A stretch of DNA of 64,000 bases. It comes from Flagellimonas yonaguniensis (GTDB lineage Bacteria; Bacteroidota; Bacteroidia; Flavobacteriales; Flavobacteriaceae). The stretch is taken from the NCBI RefSeq assembly GCF_029193885.1, contig NZ_JARFVB010000010.1, positions 62,001 through 126,000 of the forward strand, written 5' to 3'. A program made the position numbers and the translations under genes. Positions within the stretch are counted from its first letter, which is position 1; each line of letters opens with the position of its first letter. Below are positions 55,901 through 62,918 of the stretch, piece after piece. The notes under the pieces are model-generated. The model did not search any database. It was not told the origin of the DNA and saw only the letters and a program-made list of their open reading frames with translations.

Positions 55901-56010
55901 TAAAAAGACATATAGCTTTACAATTAAAGGTTAGTAGGCTGACACTAATGGCGCGAATTCTCGCGAATGACTTTGAGGAGACCAATGCCGTAGCACGACA
56001 CCATTCCAAA

Positions 56011-56045
56011 AAGTAGGGAGTTTGGTTTAGGGGTGGGGGAGCAAT
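56011..56045. repeat. 35-bp imperfect direct repeat, left copy
   Basis: AAGTAGGGAGTTTGGTTTAG and following GGGTGGGGGAGCAAT match 57771-57805 at all but four positions. The pair encloses three genes (56072-57753). Confidence 0.7.
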
Positions 56046-56071
56046 CGATTAATTCCACTGTTGTGATTTCA

Positions 56072-57753: not shown

Positions 57754-57770
57754 TACACTCTTTTTAATAA

Positions 57771-57805
57771 AAGTAGGGAATTTGGTTTAGGGGAGGGAAA
57801 GCAAT
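57771..57805. repeat. 35-bp imperfect direct repeat, right copy
   Basis: AAGTAGGGAATTTGGTTTAG and following GGGAGGGAAAGCAAT, direct repeat of 56011-56045, 1760 bases downstream. Confidence 0.7.
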
Positions 57806-57830
57806 GGGTTTTAGCTGTTATTATGTATGG

Positions 57831-58835
57831 TTATTTTTCATAATTGAATTGTATTTCTATTTTTCCTTTTTTTATTTCCGCTGAAACCCATGGTAAGTTA
57901 TCAATTTCATTTTGGTCAGTAAAGAATTCAAAGAACATTACTTTTCCTTCATTAAATAAATTCTTTTTCAAATAGTTAATTAAAGTTTCAATTTCTGATT
58001 TATTTAATTCTTGTTTTAATAATACTTTGAATTCTCCAATACCTCCAGAATTGAATATTTTGCTTTTTATGATTTCAAATTTTATAGATTTACCATTAGA
58101 AATTAGTATTTCCTTTAGGTAATTAGAATCAATACAGCTTTCAGTCTCAACTTTTACAGCTTTAAAGGAGTAGCTGTTTTTTTCTAATTCTATTTGATAA
58201 AAATTTACTCCTCTTTCTTTTAATAGGTTTATAATTTGATTTTTATCTGATGCACTAGTTTTTAGACCAAAATAAATTGATTTCAATGCTTTGTAATCGT
58301 AGGAATTCAGTCCCTTTTTACTGGTTACAATTCGATGTTCTTGCTCATATTCCCACCTTTTTGATTTATAAAAAGCAAACTTCTTAATGAGGTCATTTTG
58401 TTTGTTTCTTATGATGTCCAAAAAGCCAATGCTTGGTGGCTCTTTTGAATATACAACAGGAAAAGAATGAACATGATTTTTTCCGTCATTTTTCAGTAAA
58501 ACTTCTAAATCATATTCTATGCAAAATCCTTTGTGCGAATTAGCATAATGAGCCCAAAGTAATTCGTCTAACGGTGTTTTGGAGAGTGAGTAAATACCCA
58601 TCTTATCGTCCATCGATAAAACCTCATCAGTATTGTTATTGATTAACTCGAAATCTTCTTTAGTTTTGGCTCCAACTTTTTGTCCAATATAATTCAGAAA
58701 ATGTTTTACTCTTTTTGTGTCAGTAGTTGCTTCACACGGGTCATTTAATTGTTGAATAGAAGACGACCAATATTGATTGTTTTCAATAGCTATTAAATCA
58801 TTGTCTGTTCCACTCCTATATTTATATACAAGCAT
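57831..58835 (-). CDS. DUF2971 domain protein
   Basis: A 334-residue protein with the DUF2971 signatures LVYKYRSGTDNDLIAIENNQYWSSSIQQLNDPCEA, LLWAHYANSHKGFCIEYDL and KSKRWEYEQEHRIV. No signal peptide. Strikingly AT-rich compared with genes on either side. Members occur in many genomic islands, but their activity is not established. It follows the caspase-like gene on the same strand with 30 bases between them, so the two are probably one operon. Confidence 0.92.
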   Translation of the reverse strand: MLVYKYRSGTDNDLIAIENNQYWSSSIQQLNDPCEATTDTKRVKHFLNYIGQKVGAKTKEDFELINNNTDEVLSMDDKMGIYSLSKTPLDELLWAHYANSHKGFCIEYDLEVLLKNDGKNHVHSFPVVYSKEPPSIGFLDIIRNKQNDLIKKFAFYKSKRWEYEQEHRIVTSKKGLNSYDYKALKSIYFGLKTSASDKNQIINLLKERGVNFYQIELEKNSYSFKAVKVETESCIDSNYLKEILISNGKSIKFEIIKSKIFNSGGIGEFKVLLKQELNKSEIETLINYLKKNLFNEGKVMFFEFFTDQNEIDNLPWVSAEIKKGKIEIQFNYEK

Positions 58836-58865
58836 TTACTTTATTGGTTTTGTTGGCTTAAGCAA

Positions 58866-60305
58866 TCATTCTTCTCCTTTTTTCTTTTCATTAAAAGTTT
58901 CATTGAGGATATTATTTATTTTGTTTTGAAACATATCAAATATTTTTTTTAAACCCGAAACAACTTCATCTGTTTTTGTAATTGGATAAGCTGAATGAAA
59001 CCATTCAATATTTGTGTTTAAGGTTTTCTTGTCCCAATTCTTTTCTTCAAAGTTTGTAGTAAAGTAAAAAAATGCAATCTCTCTTTTTGAAATGAGATAA
59101 ATAACACGGCACGTAAAAGAATCAACATTAGGAAATTGAGAATTTAGATTAAATACAATTGTTTTGTAGGGAACTTCAACATCCAAGTCAAATCCGTCCA
59201 TTATCCATTCATATTCATCATTATTCTCCTGCCCAAGTATTTGAACTCTACCAAACGAGAGTGAACCATAAGGGTTTGTATATCTGTCTTTCCGAACTCT
59301 TTTGTGCTTTGATTGAGCAAAATATTCATGGTCATTGTCTTTGAGCCATTTACCAATAATGTTTTCCTTTACAATTGGATCATAACCTTCATGAAAGCTA
59401 ATATCAAGTTCAAATATACTTTCGATGTCACCTTCTAAAGAAAATTTGTCTACTTTCTCTTTGAGGGTCGTAATGAGTTGTAAAGCTTCTTCTTTCCCAC
59501 TATAACCTTCGGCCTTTTTCTTAATTTGATCCAATAATGATGTTGCTTCTGACTTGTCTGCCTCCTTTGTTTTAATATTGAATTTCAGTGTTTCCAAATA
59601 TTCCTTTAATGGTTTGTCTATTGAACAGAACTTCTCTGTATAGTCTGCCTGTATAACGAAGAATGGTGTCTGGGATGTGTTACCTTCAAACTCGTCTGAA
59701 ATAAAATCAATAATGTCTTTATATCGTATTTCAGTGCTGTTGTGGTTCTTTATTGATAATATGAAGCTTTTGGTAAAGTCACTAATAATATCGGATTGAT
59801 ATGAACTTTGATCATTCAAAGACGAATTTAAGAAGTAGCACCTATTAAATCGTTCTTGAGTCTTCTTGAAATACTTACTGATGCCATTTGCCTCCTTGAT
59901 ATAAGATTTTCCAGATTGGCAAGCATCAATAATTTTAACCACTAAATCAGGACTAAGCGCCTTAATGAGGTTGTCAACTTCTTCATTTTGTAGCGAAGTC
60001 TGTTTTCGTTTATGTTCGTCATAGTCTGATAATTGAAAGTAGAATTCATCATTAAAAAACTCACCATGCCCCGTATAGTAGAGAAGTAATTCTGATATGT
60101 CGTCCTTTTTATGATCTGCAATGAATTCTGTGAGTCTTTCCTTGATTATAGCACTTTCAAGTTTTTCATTGATATAAAGTATATCATCGTACTTACCAGT
60201 TTTAACCATAATATCGTGTATTGCCTTAGCATCTTTATGGCAGCCAGGTAGATTATTGGCAGCGTTCTTATACTCGCTAATTCCTAAAATTATTCCAATA
60301 TTCAT
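58866..60305 (-). CDS. Caspase-like (C14) protease
   Basis: A 479-residue protein with a caspase/metacaspase domain at the N-terminus (1-235). The catalytic His is His80 in YYTGHGEFF and the Cys is Cys129 in KIIDACQSGKSY; the N-terminal GIILGISEYKNAANNLPGCHKDAKAIHDIM is typical of bacterial caspases. A coiled linker (235-300) and an unrecognised beta-rich C-terminal domain (about 330-479; YGSLSFGRVQILGQENNDEY) follow. AT-rich like its partner DUF2971 gene. Bacterial caspase-like proteases are found in several immune systems (for example next to gasdermins), so a defence role is plausible but unproven here. Confidence 0.92.
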   Translation of the reverse strand: MNIGIILGISEYKNAANNLPGCHKDAKAIHDIMVKTGKYDDILYINEKLESAIIKERLTEFIADHKKDDISELLLYYTGHGEFFNDEFYFQLSDYDEHKRKQTSLQNEEVDNLIKALSPDLVVKIIDACQSGKSYIKEANGISKYFKKTQERFNRCYFLNSSLNDQSSYQSDIISDFTKSFILSIKNHNSTEIRYKDIIDFISDEFEGNTSQTPFFVIQADYTEKFCSIDKPLKEYLETLKFNIKTKEADKSEATSLLDQIKKKAEGYSGKEEALQLITTLKEKVDKFSLEGDIESIFELDISFHEGYDPIVKENIIGKWLKDNDHEYFAQSKHKRVRKDRYTNPYGSLSFGRVQILGQENNDEYEWIMDGFDLDVEVPYKTIVFNLNSQFPNVDSFTCRVIYLISKREIAFFYFTTNFEEKNWDKKTLNTNIEWFHSAYPITKTDEVVSGLKKIFDMFQNKINNILNETFNEKKKGEE

Positions 60306-60459
60306 TGTTCTTTATTTATTACAGTTAACAGGTTTTTTTGGACTAAAAATCCAATAGCACTCTAAATTCAACGAAATTTCCCTCAAAATCAATAAGTTAA
60401 CCTGCCAAGTTGTAAGAAGTTATCAACCGACCCGCTATTTTCAGTTTCGGGAGAAAATG

Positions 60460-60467
60460 TATATTTG
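60460..60467 (+). promoter_or_regulatory. -7 promoter box of the leader RNA
   Basis: TATATTTG, 4 bases before the 5' strand of the leader's closing stem, so transcription should start near 60472. No clear -33 element. Confidence 0.5.
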
Positions 60468-60470
60468 AGT

Positions 60471-60646
60471 CGTCAACACATTTTAATAATCTCGCAATGC
60501 GAAAATTTCAAAATCGGTTTAAACAGAAAAAACTGGGAAGGCATACGGGTGCAAGTCCCGAGACCTATCTGAGCATTGCTTGGAATGTGTTGACGGTGAC
60601 CTTCCCTTTTTGTTTCATTAATAACCTACTTACTTATGTCAACACA
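60471..60646 (+). ncRNA. Structured leader RNA, candidate riboswitch overlapping the start codon
   Basis: A perfect 12-bp closing stem (CGTCAACACATT, 60471-60482, with AATGTGTTGACG, 60584-60595) encloses a second helix (GCAATGC 60494-60500 / GCATTGC 60573-60579) and the hairpin CGGG-TGCAAGT-CCCG (60546-60560) preceded by GGGAAGG. The order GGGAA then GGGTGCAAGTCCC resembles part of the cobalamin riboswitch core, but its later conserved boxes are not seen. The 3' arm TGTGTTGAC (60586-60594) can pair instead with GTCAACACA at 60638-60646, covering the start codon of the 91-aa gene. A second alternative pairs GGGAAGG with CCTTCCC (60600-60606), followed by five Ts. Ligand unknown. Confidence 0.6.
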
Positions 60647-60911
60647 AGATGGTCAAAAAAACTGCCCCCAATGCAGTAACACGAATGCGCAAAGCGCTCC
60701 CGAAATTTCCCAAATGCTAACCCAAGCACAAATCCAATTGTTGGACTACGCCGATGCCTTGGATGGTCCCGATCTGGTAAAATCCCTAAAACTGCTGCAC
60801 AATATTGCGGTGTACCATTCCTCCGAACCTTTGGATGAAGTGGAAAAAGATGCGCTCTTCAACATAAAAGGGCTGTGGGAGTGTATTGAGCGGATTGTTA
60901 TTGAAAAGTGA
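60636..60911 (+). CDS. 91-residue hypothetical protein under leader-RNA control
   Basis: A small soluble protein with an N-terminal CPQC (a lone zinc-knuckle half), a serine/asparagine linker, and a helical domain (MLTQAQIQLLDYADALDGPDLVKSLKLLHNIAVYHSSEPLDEVEKDALFNIKGLWECIERI). I do not recognise the family. Its start codon sits in the second half of a leader RNA stem-swap (see 60471-60646), so its translation is probably switched. Downstream, 60912-61003 is purine-rich with repeated AAAAGGT/GTAAAA motifs and no gene. Confidence 0.8.
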   Translation: MSTQDGQKNCPQCSNTNAQSAPEISQMLTQAQIQLLDYADALDGPDLVKSLKLLHNIAVYHSSEPLDEVEKDALFNIKGLWECIERIVIEK

Positions 60912-61003
60912 AAAGTAAAAAAGTAAAAGTGAAAAGGTTAACGGTTATGGGTAAAAGGTGAATGGTAAAAAGGTTAAGGGGGGTAGTAGTACTATCCGAG
61001 CGT

Positions 61004-62009: not shown

Positions 62010-62918
62010 TCAATGTTTTTGATTCATCATGTGGTCATAAAAGGTTTTTGAAATGTCCGCCAGTTGTTTAGTGCCCTTATCAAAATCCTTTAAGTTTTTG
62101 GAGAGCAGCACCAATACATAGCTTTTTCCATTGGGCAGGTACACAATGCCCGCATCATGGTGCACACCGGTTATGGACCCGGTTTTATGGGCAACCTCAA
62201 CGTCTATGGGGAGTTTGGCCGGAATCATGTCATTGAACTGTTGGTCTTTTAAAATACGAAGCATATCCTGACAGTCCGTTTCGTTTCCTGCCTTGTTCAT
62301 GGCAATGGCTTCCATAATGACAAGTAGGTCCTTTGCCGTTGTTGAATTGCTAAGCCCCAATTCATAAGCCTTGATATCTTCAACACCCCGTAGGACTTCA
62401 ATAGTATCCGCACCCAAATCCCGCATGGTGGCGGTCACTTTTTTGGCATCCACTAGCTCAATCAGCACATTGGTGGCCAGATTGCTGCTTACGGTGATCA
62501 TGCTGTACATTAAATCTTTGAGTGCCACGTTGGTGTTTATCTTATCATAGATGACATCATCACTGTCATCCGCAATGTCCATACTGTAGGGACTACCGTC
62601 AACAATGCTCTTAAACTCATTGACAAGAAGGATGGAATCGTTCAGGTTGATTTTTCCTGAAGCCTGTTGTTTGAAGAGTTCAATCATCACGGGAACCTTC
62701 ATGGTACTGGCGGCGTGGAATTCTTGGTTGGCATTGATATGGAGACTATCCGCAGGGTCAGAGAGATTTAGGAACGCCACTGCCACATCACCTTCAATGG
62801 TATCGATTTGTGTTCGGACTTTGGTTTCCAACGCTTCTTTTGGGGTTGGTTTTGGTTGGCAGGCTGTTATGCAGTAGCAAAGCAAAACAAAAAGCATGAA
62901 TTTCGGTTGATTAATCAT
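62010..62918 (-). CDS. Class A beta-lactamase-like serine hydrolase, lipoprotein
   Basis: A 302-residue lipoprotein (lipobox YCITAC) with the serine beta-lactamase core: SxxK in ASTMKVP (Ser71, Lys74), SxN in TVSSNLATN (Ser144, Asn146) and KTG in HKTGSITG (Lys245). The omega-loop region reads AYELGLSNSTTAKDLLV, unlike typical class A EPELN, so activity against beta-lactams is uncertain. It may be a penicillin-binding-type or peptidase-type hydrolase. No regulator is adjacent. Confidence 0.9.
   Translation of the reverse strand: MINQPKFMLFVLLCYCITACQPKPTPKEALETKVRTQIDTIEGDVAVAFLNLSDPADSLHINANQEFHAASTMKVPVMIELFKQQASGKINLNDSILLVNEFKSIVDGSPYSMDIADDSDDVIYDKINTNVALKDLMYSMITVSSNLATNVLIELVDAKKVTATMRDLGADTIEVLRGVEDIKAYELGLSNSTTAKDLLVIMEAIAMNKAGNETDCQDMLRILKDQQFNDMIPAKLPIDVEVAHKTGSITGVHHDAGIVYLPNGKSYVLVLLSKNLKDFDKGTKQLADISKTFYDHMMNQKH

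Follow-up and report, generated by a model that had tools for sequence, protein, structure and literature searches.

Upstream of a 91-aa open reading frame in Flagellimonas yonaguniensis lies a leader in which a single strand is complementary to two other segments, one at the 5' end of the predicted transcript and one at the start codon of the ORF. What kind of RNA this arrangement encodes, and what it could control, was asked in a window of 64,000 nucleotides (the whole stretch of DNA analysed, to which all coordinates refer) and in relatives of the leader from bacterial genomes and viral contigs. A sequence-only reading of the window had proposed a candidate riboswitch, either a cobalamin variant or a new class. 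The pairing arrangement behind that proposal was confirmed, the riboswitch interpretation itself is partly supported, and the interpretation now favoured is an antisense switch resembling C4 and derived from phages.

One strand and its two partners

The elements of the leader are listed in Table 1. The 12-bp closing stem of P1 (60471-60482 with 60584-60595, perfect), the inner 7-bp helix and the 9-bp pairing of the 3' arm with the start codon were found exactly where the sequence-only reading had placed them. When wobbles are counted, P1 forms a run of 15 starting at 60472. The 3' arm can take either the 5' arm or the start copy as its partner. The opening of the 91-aa ORF, ATGTCAACACA (60636-60646), occurs once in the genome to which the window belongs, this occurrence being the gene's own. 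The element TATATTTG, which we take to be a -7 box of the Bacteroidota type, stands ahead of the stem as had been pointed out, and a similar box precedes the 5' arm in relatives. None of 20,000 mononucleotide shuffles contained a 12-bp arm pair together with a 9-nt third copy, and none of 200 dinucleotide shuffles folded as well as the leader (z = -5.2).

Table 1. Positions of the leader elements and of neighbouring genes in the window
Feature	Position	Strand	Observation
-7 promoter box TATATTTG	60460..60467	+	Read from sequence; transcription would begin at the 5' arm
5' arm of P1, first copy (a1-like)	60471..60486	+	Pairs with 60584-60595
Inner helix P2, 5' strand GCAATGC	60494..60500	+	Pairs with 60573-60579 (7 bp)
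Pseudoknot stem, 5' strand GGGAAGGCA	60535..60543	+	Covaries with 60597-60606
T-loop hairpin CGGG-TGCAAGT-CCCG	60546..60560	+	Core GGTG.AAGTCC kept in 49 distinct leaders, in part a product of the search patterns for viral members
Hairpin H, TCTGAGC-ATT-GCTTGGA	60568..60584	+	Alternative to P2 and to the longest P1
P2, 3' strand GCATTGC, within hairpin H	60573..60579	+	Read from sequence
3' arm, antisense strand (a'-like); core 60586-60594 TGTGTTGAC	60584..60595	+	Covaries with both partners
Pseudoknot stem, 3' strand TGACCTTCCC	60597..60606	+	One A bulged; covaries with 60535-60543
Start copy GTCAACACA (a2-like)	60638..60646	+	Begins at the G of ATG; 9 bp with 60586-60594
91-aa ORF	60636..60911	+	No Pfam, PHROG or NCBIfam match
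Caspase-domain gene, divergent neighbour	58866-60305	-	Peptidase_C14 3.6e-16; PADLOC caspase 3e-05
DUF2971 gene, divergent neighbour	57831-58835	-	DUF2971 3e-12; PADLOC candidate PDC-S31 2.6e-50

Two other elements were described less completely at first. The inner helix exists as claimed, yet it competes with a hairpin that had not been listed (hairpin H). A third pairing, GGGAAGG (60535-60541) with CCTTCCC (60600-60606), had been proposed as a terminator excluding the other two. Its 7 bp are present, directly followed by TTTTT (60607-60611), and the stem is real and actually longer (Table 1); its exclusion of the other pairings did not hold. The 3' arm is located in the loop of this stem, two bases 5' of its 3' strand, and the order and spacing of the segments suggest that the 3' arm on either partner would form an H-type pseudoknot on the same stem. 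The supposed terminator would thus be the pseudoknot partner in both states. A run of at least four T lies within 22 nt after the pseudoknot stem in 46 of 59 leaders.

The two pairings of the 3' arm were then compared across relatives. The strand before the motif RGTGACC was complementary to the start-codon region, over a run of at least 8, in all 57 distinct leaders including that of the window; the start-side repeat, whose absence from homologues had been named as a point against a switch, is thus kept in this set, but it is missing from two viral matches, L275 (core and a 12-nt 5' arm, with a run of just 6 at the start) and its relative L269 (core, with neither copy). Complementarity of the same strand to the transcript 5' end, again over at least 8, was found in 54 of the 57. 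The sequence of the strand itself varies, with 25 distinct decamers, a count from which L199 was omitted since its copy ends rather than begins at ATG. Over these 25 arms the start pairing scored 8.0 of 8, against 4.7 after permutation (maximum 5.84 in 10,000 rounds), and over 23 arms P1 scored 7.91 of 8 (permuted maximum 6.09, 10,000 rounds); L095, whose register is shifted by an extra base, and L215, at a contig end, were left out of the P1 count and of the energy set. As related leaders are not independent events, these figures describe a pattern and are not probabilities.

P1, the start pairing, the GGGAAGG/CCTTCCC stem and the T-loop stem all vary among relatives with pairing kept, and the pseudoknot stem covaries at columns 68-70 of alignment A4 of the genus leaders. 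Beside these variable helices the core GGCA, GGTG.AAGTCC and GTGACC is conserved. Compensatory changes, which had been suggested as a check, were found in both alternative pairings, and covariation supports the claim that one leader strand has two alternative partners of which one is the start codon. Positions at which the 5' arm differs from the start copy while both remain paired show U in the former and C in the latter opposite G, in 11 of 11 cases or, with more leaders included, in 16 of 17. A scan for RGTGAYC with both complementarities, in which the T-loop was not required, returned 50 distinct places in 1.86 Mb (the loci already fetched for relatives), all of them with the T-loop core, while the same scan on shuffled sequence returned 1. 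The sequence TT[TC][GA] stands 3-6 nt ahead of the 5' arm in 59 of 59 leaders, and the stricter TA..TTT[GA] in 48, which puts the 5' arm directly downstream of a promoter-like box.

Relatives in the genus and in viral contigs

Within the genus, the 91-aa protein is encoded in 36 of 71 Allomuricauda/Flagellimonas genomes, and a model built from 25 leaders detected the RNA in 30 of the 71 (35 matches). At the family level, this genus-built model with stricter filters found the leader in one of 299 genomes, the window's own, and the protein was found in two, the window's own and one weak match (G214, E 2e-4); the 299 genomes include at least one further member of the genus. A broad leader pattern matched two of 395 genomes of the phylum, the window's own and G369. 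Scanning 84,980 species genomes with a peptide pattern gave 34 loci, 32 in Allomuricauda/Muricauda/Flagellimonas and two in Bacteroidia MAGs.

The genus leaders fall into three main arm types, GTCAACACA, GCGAAAC(ACA/GTA) and GCTACAC, and all three copies change jointly. Ten of 37 rows have no intact leader (five decayed, five without most of it), and the start copy is lost or decayed at these same ten loci, both as judged by eye. In L125, L146, L148 and L149 the middle of the leader is mostly gone, and what is left of the 3' part, judged by eye, differs in type from the 5' arm. For the 91-aa protein, AlphaFold2 gave a mean pLDDT of 70.7, with residues 1-25 mostly below 50 and helices from 30 to 90; no viral structure matched the model at E<=0.001, and the best hit of a PDB profile search had E 0.76.

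In IMG/VR, the T-loop pattern matched 20 stretches, 12 of which also had GTGACC at the right distance; the eight without it were dropped. Relaxed patterns gave 24, 24, 24 and then 34 matches, and in two further searches 28 of 29 and 6 of 6 matches were discarded as chance or unfit. A start copy (run of at least 8 at the start codon) was present in 28 of the 34 pattern matches, and the 5' arm reached at least 8 in 26 of these 28; it was 6 in L204, and L215 is cut by the contig end. The six others were put aside: L271, L274 and L276 as chance-like, L269 and L275 for want of a start copy, and L270, unmatched by the script, uninspected. Among named phages in INPHARED, three leaders and one small ORF had no match.

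A Pfam antirepressor-type domain was encoded within about 620 nt downstream of 16 of the 28 viral relatives, a raw count that includes any antirepressors expected behind arbitrary phage leaders. The domains were Bro-N (L197, L203, L208, L215, L223), KilA-N (L206, L227), Phage_pRha (L218, L219, L222 and, with ANT, L226), AntA (L225, L244 and, with ANT, L220) and P22_AR_N (L210, L273). The antirepressor is the first gene in four of the 16 (L197, L203, L208, L215), and in the other 12 one or two ORFs intervene, of which the first usually has about 80-130 aa. The domain scan covered 21 of the 28 (all but L201, L205, L216, L217, L224, L272 and L277) and revealed no antirepressor domain behind L199, L202, L204, L212 and L221. 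L244 (IMGVR_UViG_2898713307_000001) has the antisense core and start copy of the window itself (TGTGTTGAC / ATGTCAACACA), followed by a 108-aa ORF and the AntA gene.

Some of the viral contigs may be chromosomal: L212, on the contig of L202, is near a SufE-domain gene. This 48-kb contig (IMGVR_UViG_3300027891_000600) carries two copies of the RNA, L202 and L212, with different arms and similar small proteins behind them, and a third protein similar to these is found at L221. Of 16 viral contigs inspected, those of L203, L206 and L208 have, directly upstream of the RNA, ORFs of 100-118 aa that resemble one another (RRRFDDV..LS..EFFIS).

Comparison with C4 and alternative explanations

Phages of the P1/P7 type are known to control their antirepressors by antisense RNA. 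In the P1 record a1 and b1 lie close to the transcript start and are followed by C4, a2, b2, icd (73 aa) and ant1. The c4 RNA is described as acting in trans on Ant synthesis (PMC8546580) and C4 RNA as being processed by RNase P (PMC5320573). As relatives of our leader precede phage antirepressor genes, this RNA is most likely a Bacteroidota counterpart of phage P1 C4. With the C4 of P1/P7 (RF01695; c4-a1b1, RF03163) the window shares an antisense strand that is complementary both to a copy close to the transcript start and to another at the first gene. The succession of RNA, small ORF (like icd) and antirepressor in one operon occurs in phage relatives and not in the window. In contrast to C4, the RNA has a T-loop hairpin and pseudoknot fold, one antisense site instead of two (a, b), a start copy on the start codon itself, a 5' copy at the transcript end, and a host among the Bacteroidota, whereas Weinberg 2010 assigns C4 to Proteobacteria and phages (PMC2864571). 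The leader is not a member of the Rfam C4 family: the RF01695 model finds phage P1 with E 1e-12 but neither the window nor any relative scanned. We consider it somewhat more likely than not that the RNA is a Bacteroidota C4-like antisense switch of phages and that the window holds a chromosomal copy without the antirepressor. Against this reading stand the different fold and the lack of a C4-model match, the 12 of 28 viral relatives for which no antirepressor is recorded, its absence behind the genus copies seen, the missing start copy of L275 and L269, and the single occurrence of ATGTCAACACA in the window's genome.

In its ON state, such a switch would have the 3' arm paired upstream with the transcript 5' end, leaving the start codon free, and in its OFF state the 3' arm would be paired downstream with the start codon. 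Mean energies, the pseudoknot being ignored, are -18.1 kcal/mol for the 14-nt P1 duplex and -14.9 for the start duplex; in 56 of 59 leaders P1 equals or exceeds the start duplex in strength, and the start duplex is the stronger in three. Because P1 is longer or stronger in the intact transcript, the start codon should be free and the first transcript translated; and because P1 is usually the stronger of the two, repression should depend on a 3' arm that has no 5' partner to bind, perhaps as a result of processing; this agrees with the published account of C4. A copy lacking the 5' arm, or one meeting the start codon of another copy in trans, would then block translation. The effect in phages would be to shut down the antirepressor operon of a prophage and of a related superinfecting phage, with the variable arm sequences acting as immunity specificities. 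The duplex of a leader with its own start has a mean of -15.3 kcal/mol, versus -5.0 with the starts of other leaders, and none of 756 of the latter was as good.

We find it unlikely that the RNA is a metabolite riboswitch of a new class acting in cis, with a ligand on the T-loop/pseudoknot core that locks P1 and exposes the start codon, or does the opposite. The alternative structures exposing or hiding the start codon that a riboswitch would need are there, both pairings covarying, and a strongly kept core stands beside variable helices. However, the conservation of the core in viral members is due in part to the search patterns, the neighbouring genes hint at no metabolite, and the relatives precede phage antirepressors.

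A co-transcriptional timer would do without a ligand or a second RNA: P1 would form first and allow translation at the outset, until a slow rearrangement to the start pairing ended it. The order in which the three copies are transcribed suits this mechanism, as does the finding that 16 of the 17 differing positions have U.G in P1 and C-G at the start. We hold it to be improbable because the start duplex is the stronger one in very few leaders, which, by energies that omit the pseudoknot, disfavours spontaneous refolding.

Slightly less credit still goes to autoregulation, in which the small protein encoded behind the leader would bind the T-loop core. In the genus the leader stands before one and the same 91-aa family, and the protein is otherwise absent from the family of bacteria except for the one weak match. 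Against this, phage relatives precede proteins without detectable similarity to it, including Bro-N proteins directly, and its tie to some phage small ORFs is a weak likeness (hhalign E 3.4e-4, probability 38%). In one case (L093, G005:C1:789000-801000), moreover, the leader is intact although the ORF behind it is broken.

The cobalamin riboswitch suggested by the sequence-only reading fared worst together with a DNA-level origin, and we regard it as very improbable. The hairpin GG-TGNAAGT-CC resembles the cobalamin P4/L4, and that riboswitch has a T-loop hairpin of the same type. Nevertheless, a search of 60200-61000 at E<=10 gave no hit to RF00174 or to its AdoCbl variant RF01689, three relatives gave none at E<=5, and the window and twelve viral loci gave none at gathering score; no scan made of the relatives gave a match to these models, and no B12-related genes are near the RNA. 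More generally, the 4227 families of Rfam 15 gave no gathering-score match in the 64,000 bases of the window, and no known RNA family matched the leader of any relative that was scanned. Around the leader of the window, snR39 (E 2) and the Tymovirus tRNA-like element (RF00233; E 7.7, 12.6 bits against a cutoff of 40) were the only hits at E<=10, both at chance level; the latter does share a T-loop arm next to a pseudoknotted stem. That the three copies are an accident of duplication or insertion in DNA, a known source of direct and inverted repeats in a region whose upstream part exchanges genes, is just as hard to credit, being strongly disfavoured by compensatory change in three copies over 25 arms and in the pseudoknot stem.

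A literature search, covering the field without most subscription papers, returned no report of such an RNA. Phage antisense immunity is a known kind of system to which, as far as our searches can tell, this RNA fold and this phylum are new. The nearest chromosomal parallel is the C4-like small RNAs of Acinetobacter, for which an action on incoming phage or host genes has been suggested (PMC5320573); they too are phage-type antisense RNAs kept in chromosomes, although they match the C4 model and the present RNA does not.

Exchange of arm types and the gene neighbourhood

We placed the arm types on a tree of the protein bodies minus their first nine residues. Over 37 rows there were 22 changes, against a mean of 20.2 with shuffled labels (22 or fewer in 189 of 200 shuffles), and on starred branches the pairs L114/L124, L129/L130 and L117/L123 differ in arm type. 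Such scrambling is expected if arm types are exchanged between loci, and it indicates that they have been exchanged between loci of the genus.

In 39 of 40 genus loci the first upstream ORF with 100 aa or more is divergent, and among the 40 upstream proteins just two pairs are similar at E<=1e-5. Of ten upstream genes picked by hand from the forty, seven have domains (OLD-like AAA, TIR, AAA_15/21, SLATT_6, GmrSD twice, AAA_21), which we take to be associated with defence, and three have none. A chromosomal relative from another family of the class, L229, has an AbiH gene divergently upstream. The conserved flanks differ from one group of loci to another. In the window no antirepressor follows the RNA, the next gene being on the other strand, and the other genus copies seen are likewise without one. 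The caspase-domain and DUF2971 genes of the window (57831-60305, minus strand) form a possible defence pair.

A fuller version of the C4-like reading can be offered tentatively, and we hold it with less than even confidence. It would be a separate Bacteroidota invention of C4-type immunity, with an unrelated fold and with specificity set by the first codons of the target gene, that runs the antirepressor operons of temperate phages; in Allomuricauda/Flagellimonas it would persist as a chromosomal, allele-swapping locus beside exchangeable defence genes and would silence matching incoming phages. L244, with the arm and start copy of the window before an AntA operon, is an example of what such a matching phage could look like. 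If a distinct structured RNA does control antirepressors of Bacteroidota phages by antisense pairing, the phylum would have an RNA immunity system whose specificity is readable from some nine letters. It would also offer a clean natural example of an RNA strand with a choice of two nearly identical partners, one of which carries the wobbles.

Two observations concern the surroundings of the RNA. A repeat of 50-56 bp (CATTG...TAAACCAAATTCCCTACTTTTAA, gene sense) lies between same-strand neighbours in the window (57763-57814 and 56005-56051), at L116:3753-3808 and at L187 and L188, with up to 6 copies in 19.5 kb (L187), and also in genomes without the 91-aa gene. An integron-like cassette array was considered, as the 53-bp repeat resembled a cassette site, and was rejected; the repeat, which is outside the RNA, reads as promoter-like and may be a promoter present in several copies or mark the edge of a cassette. 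Further along the window, a 302-aa ORF (62010-62918, minus strand) encodes a putative serine beta-lactamase family protein.
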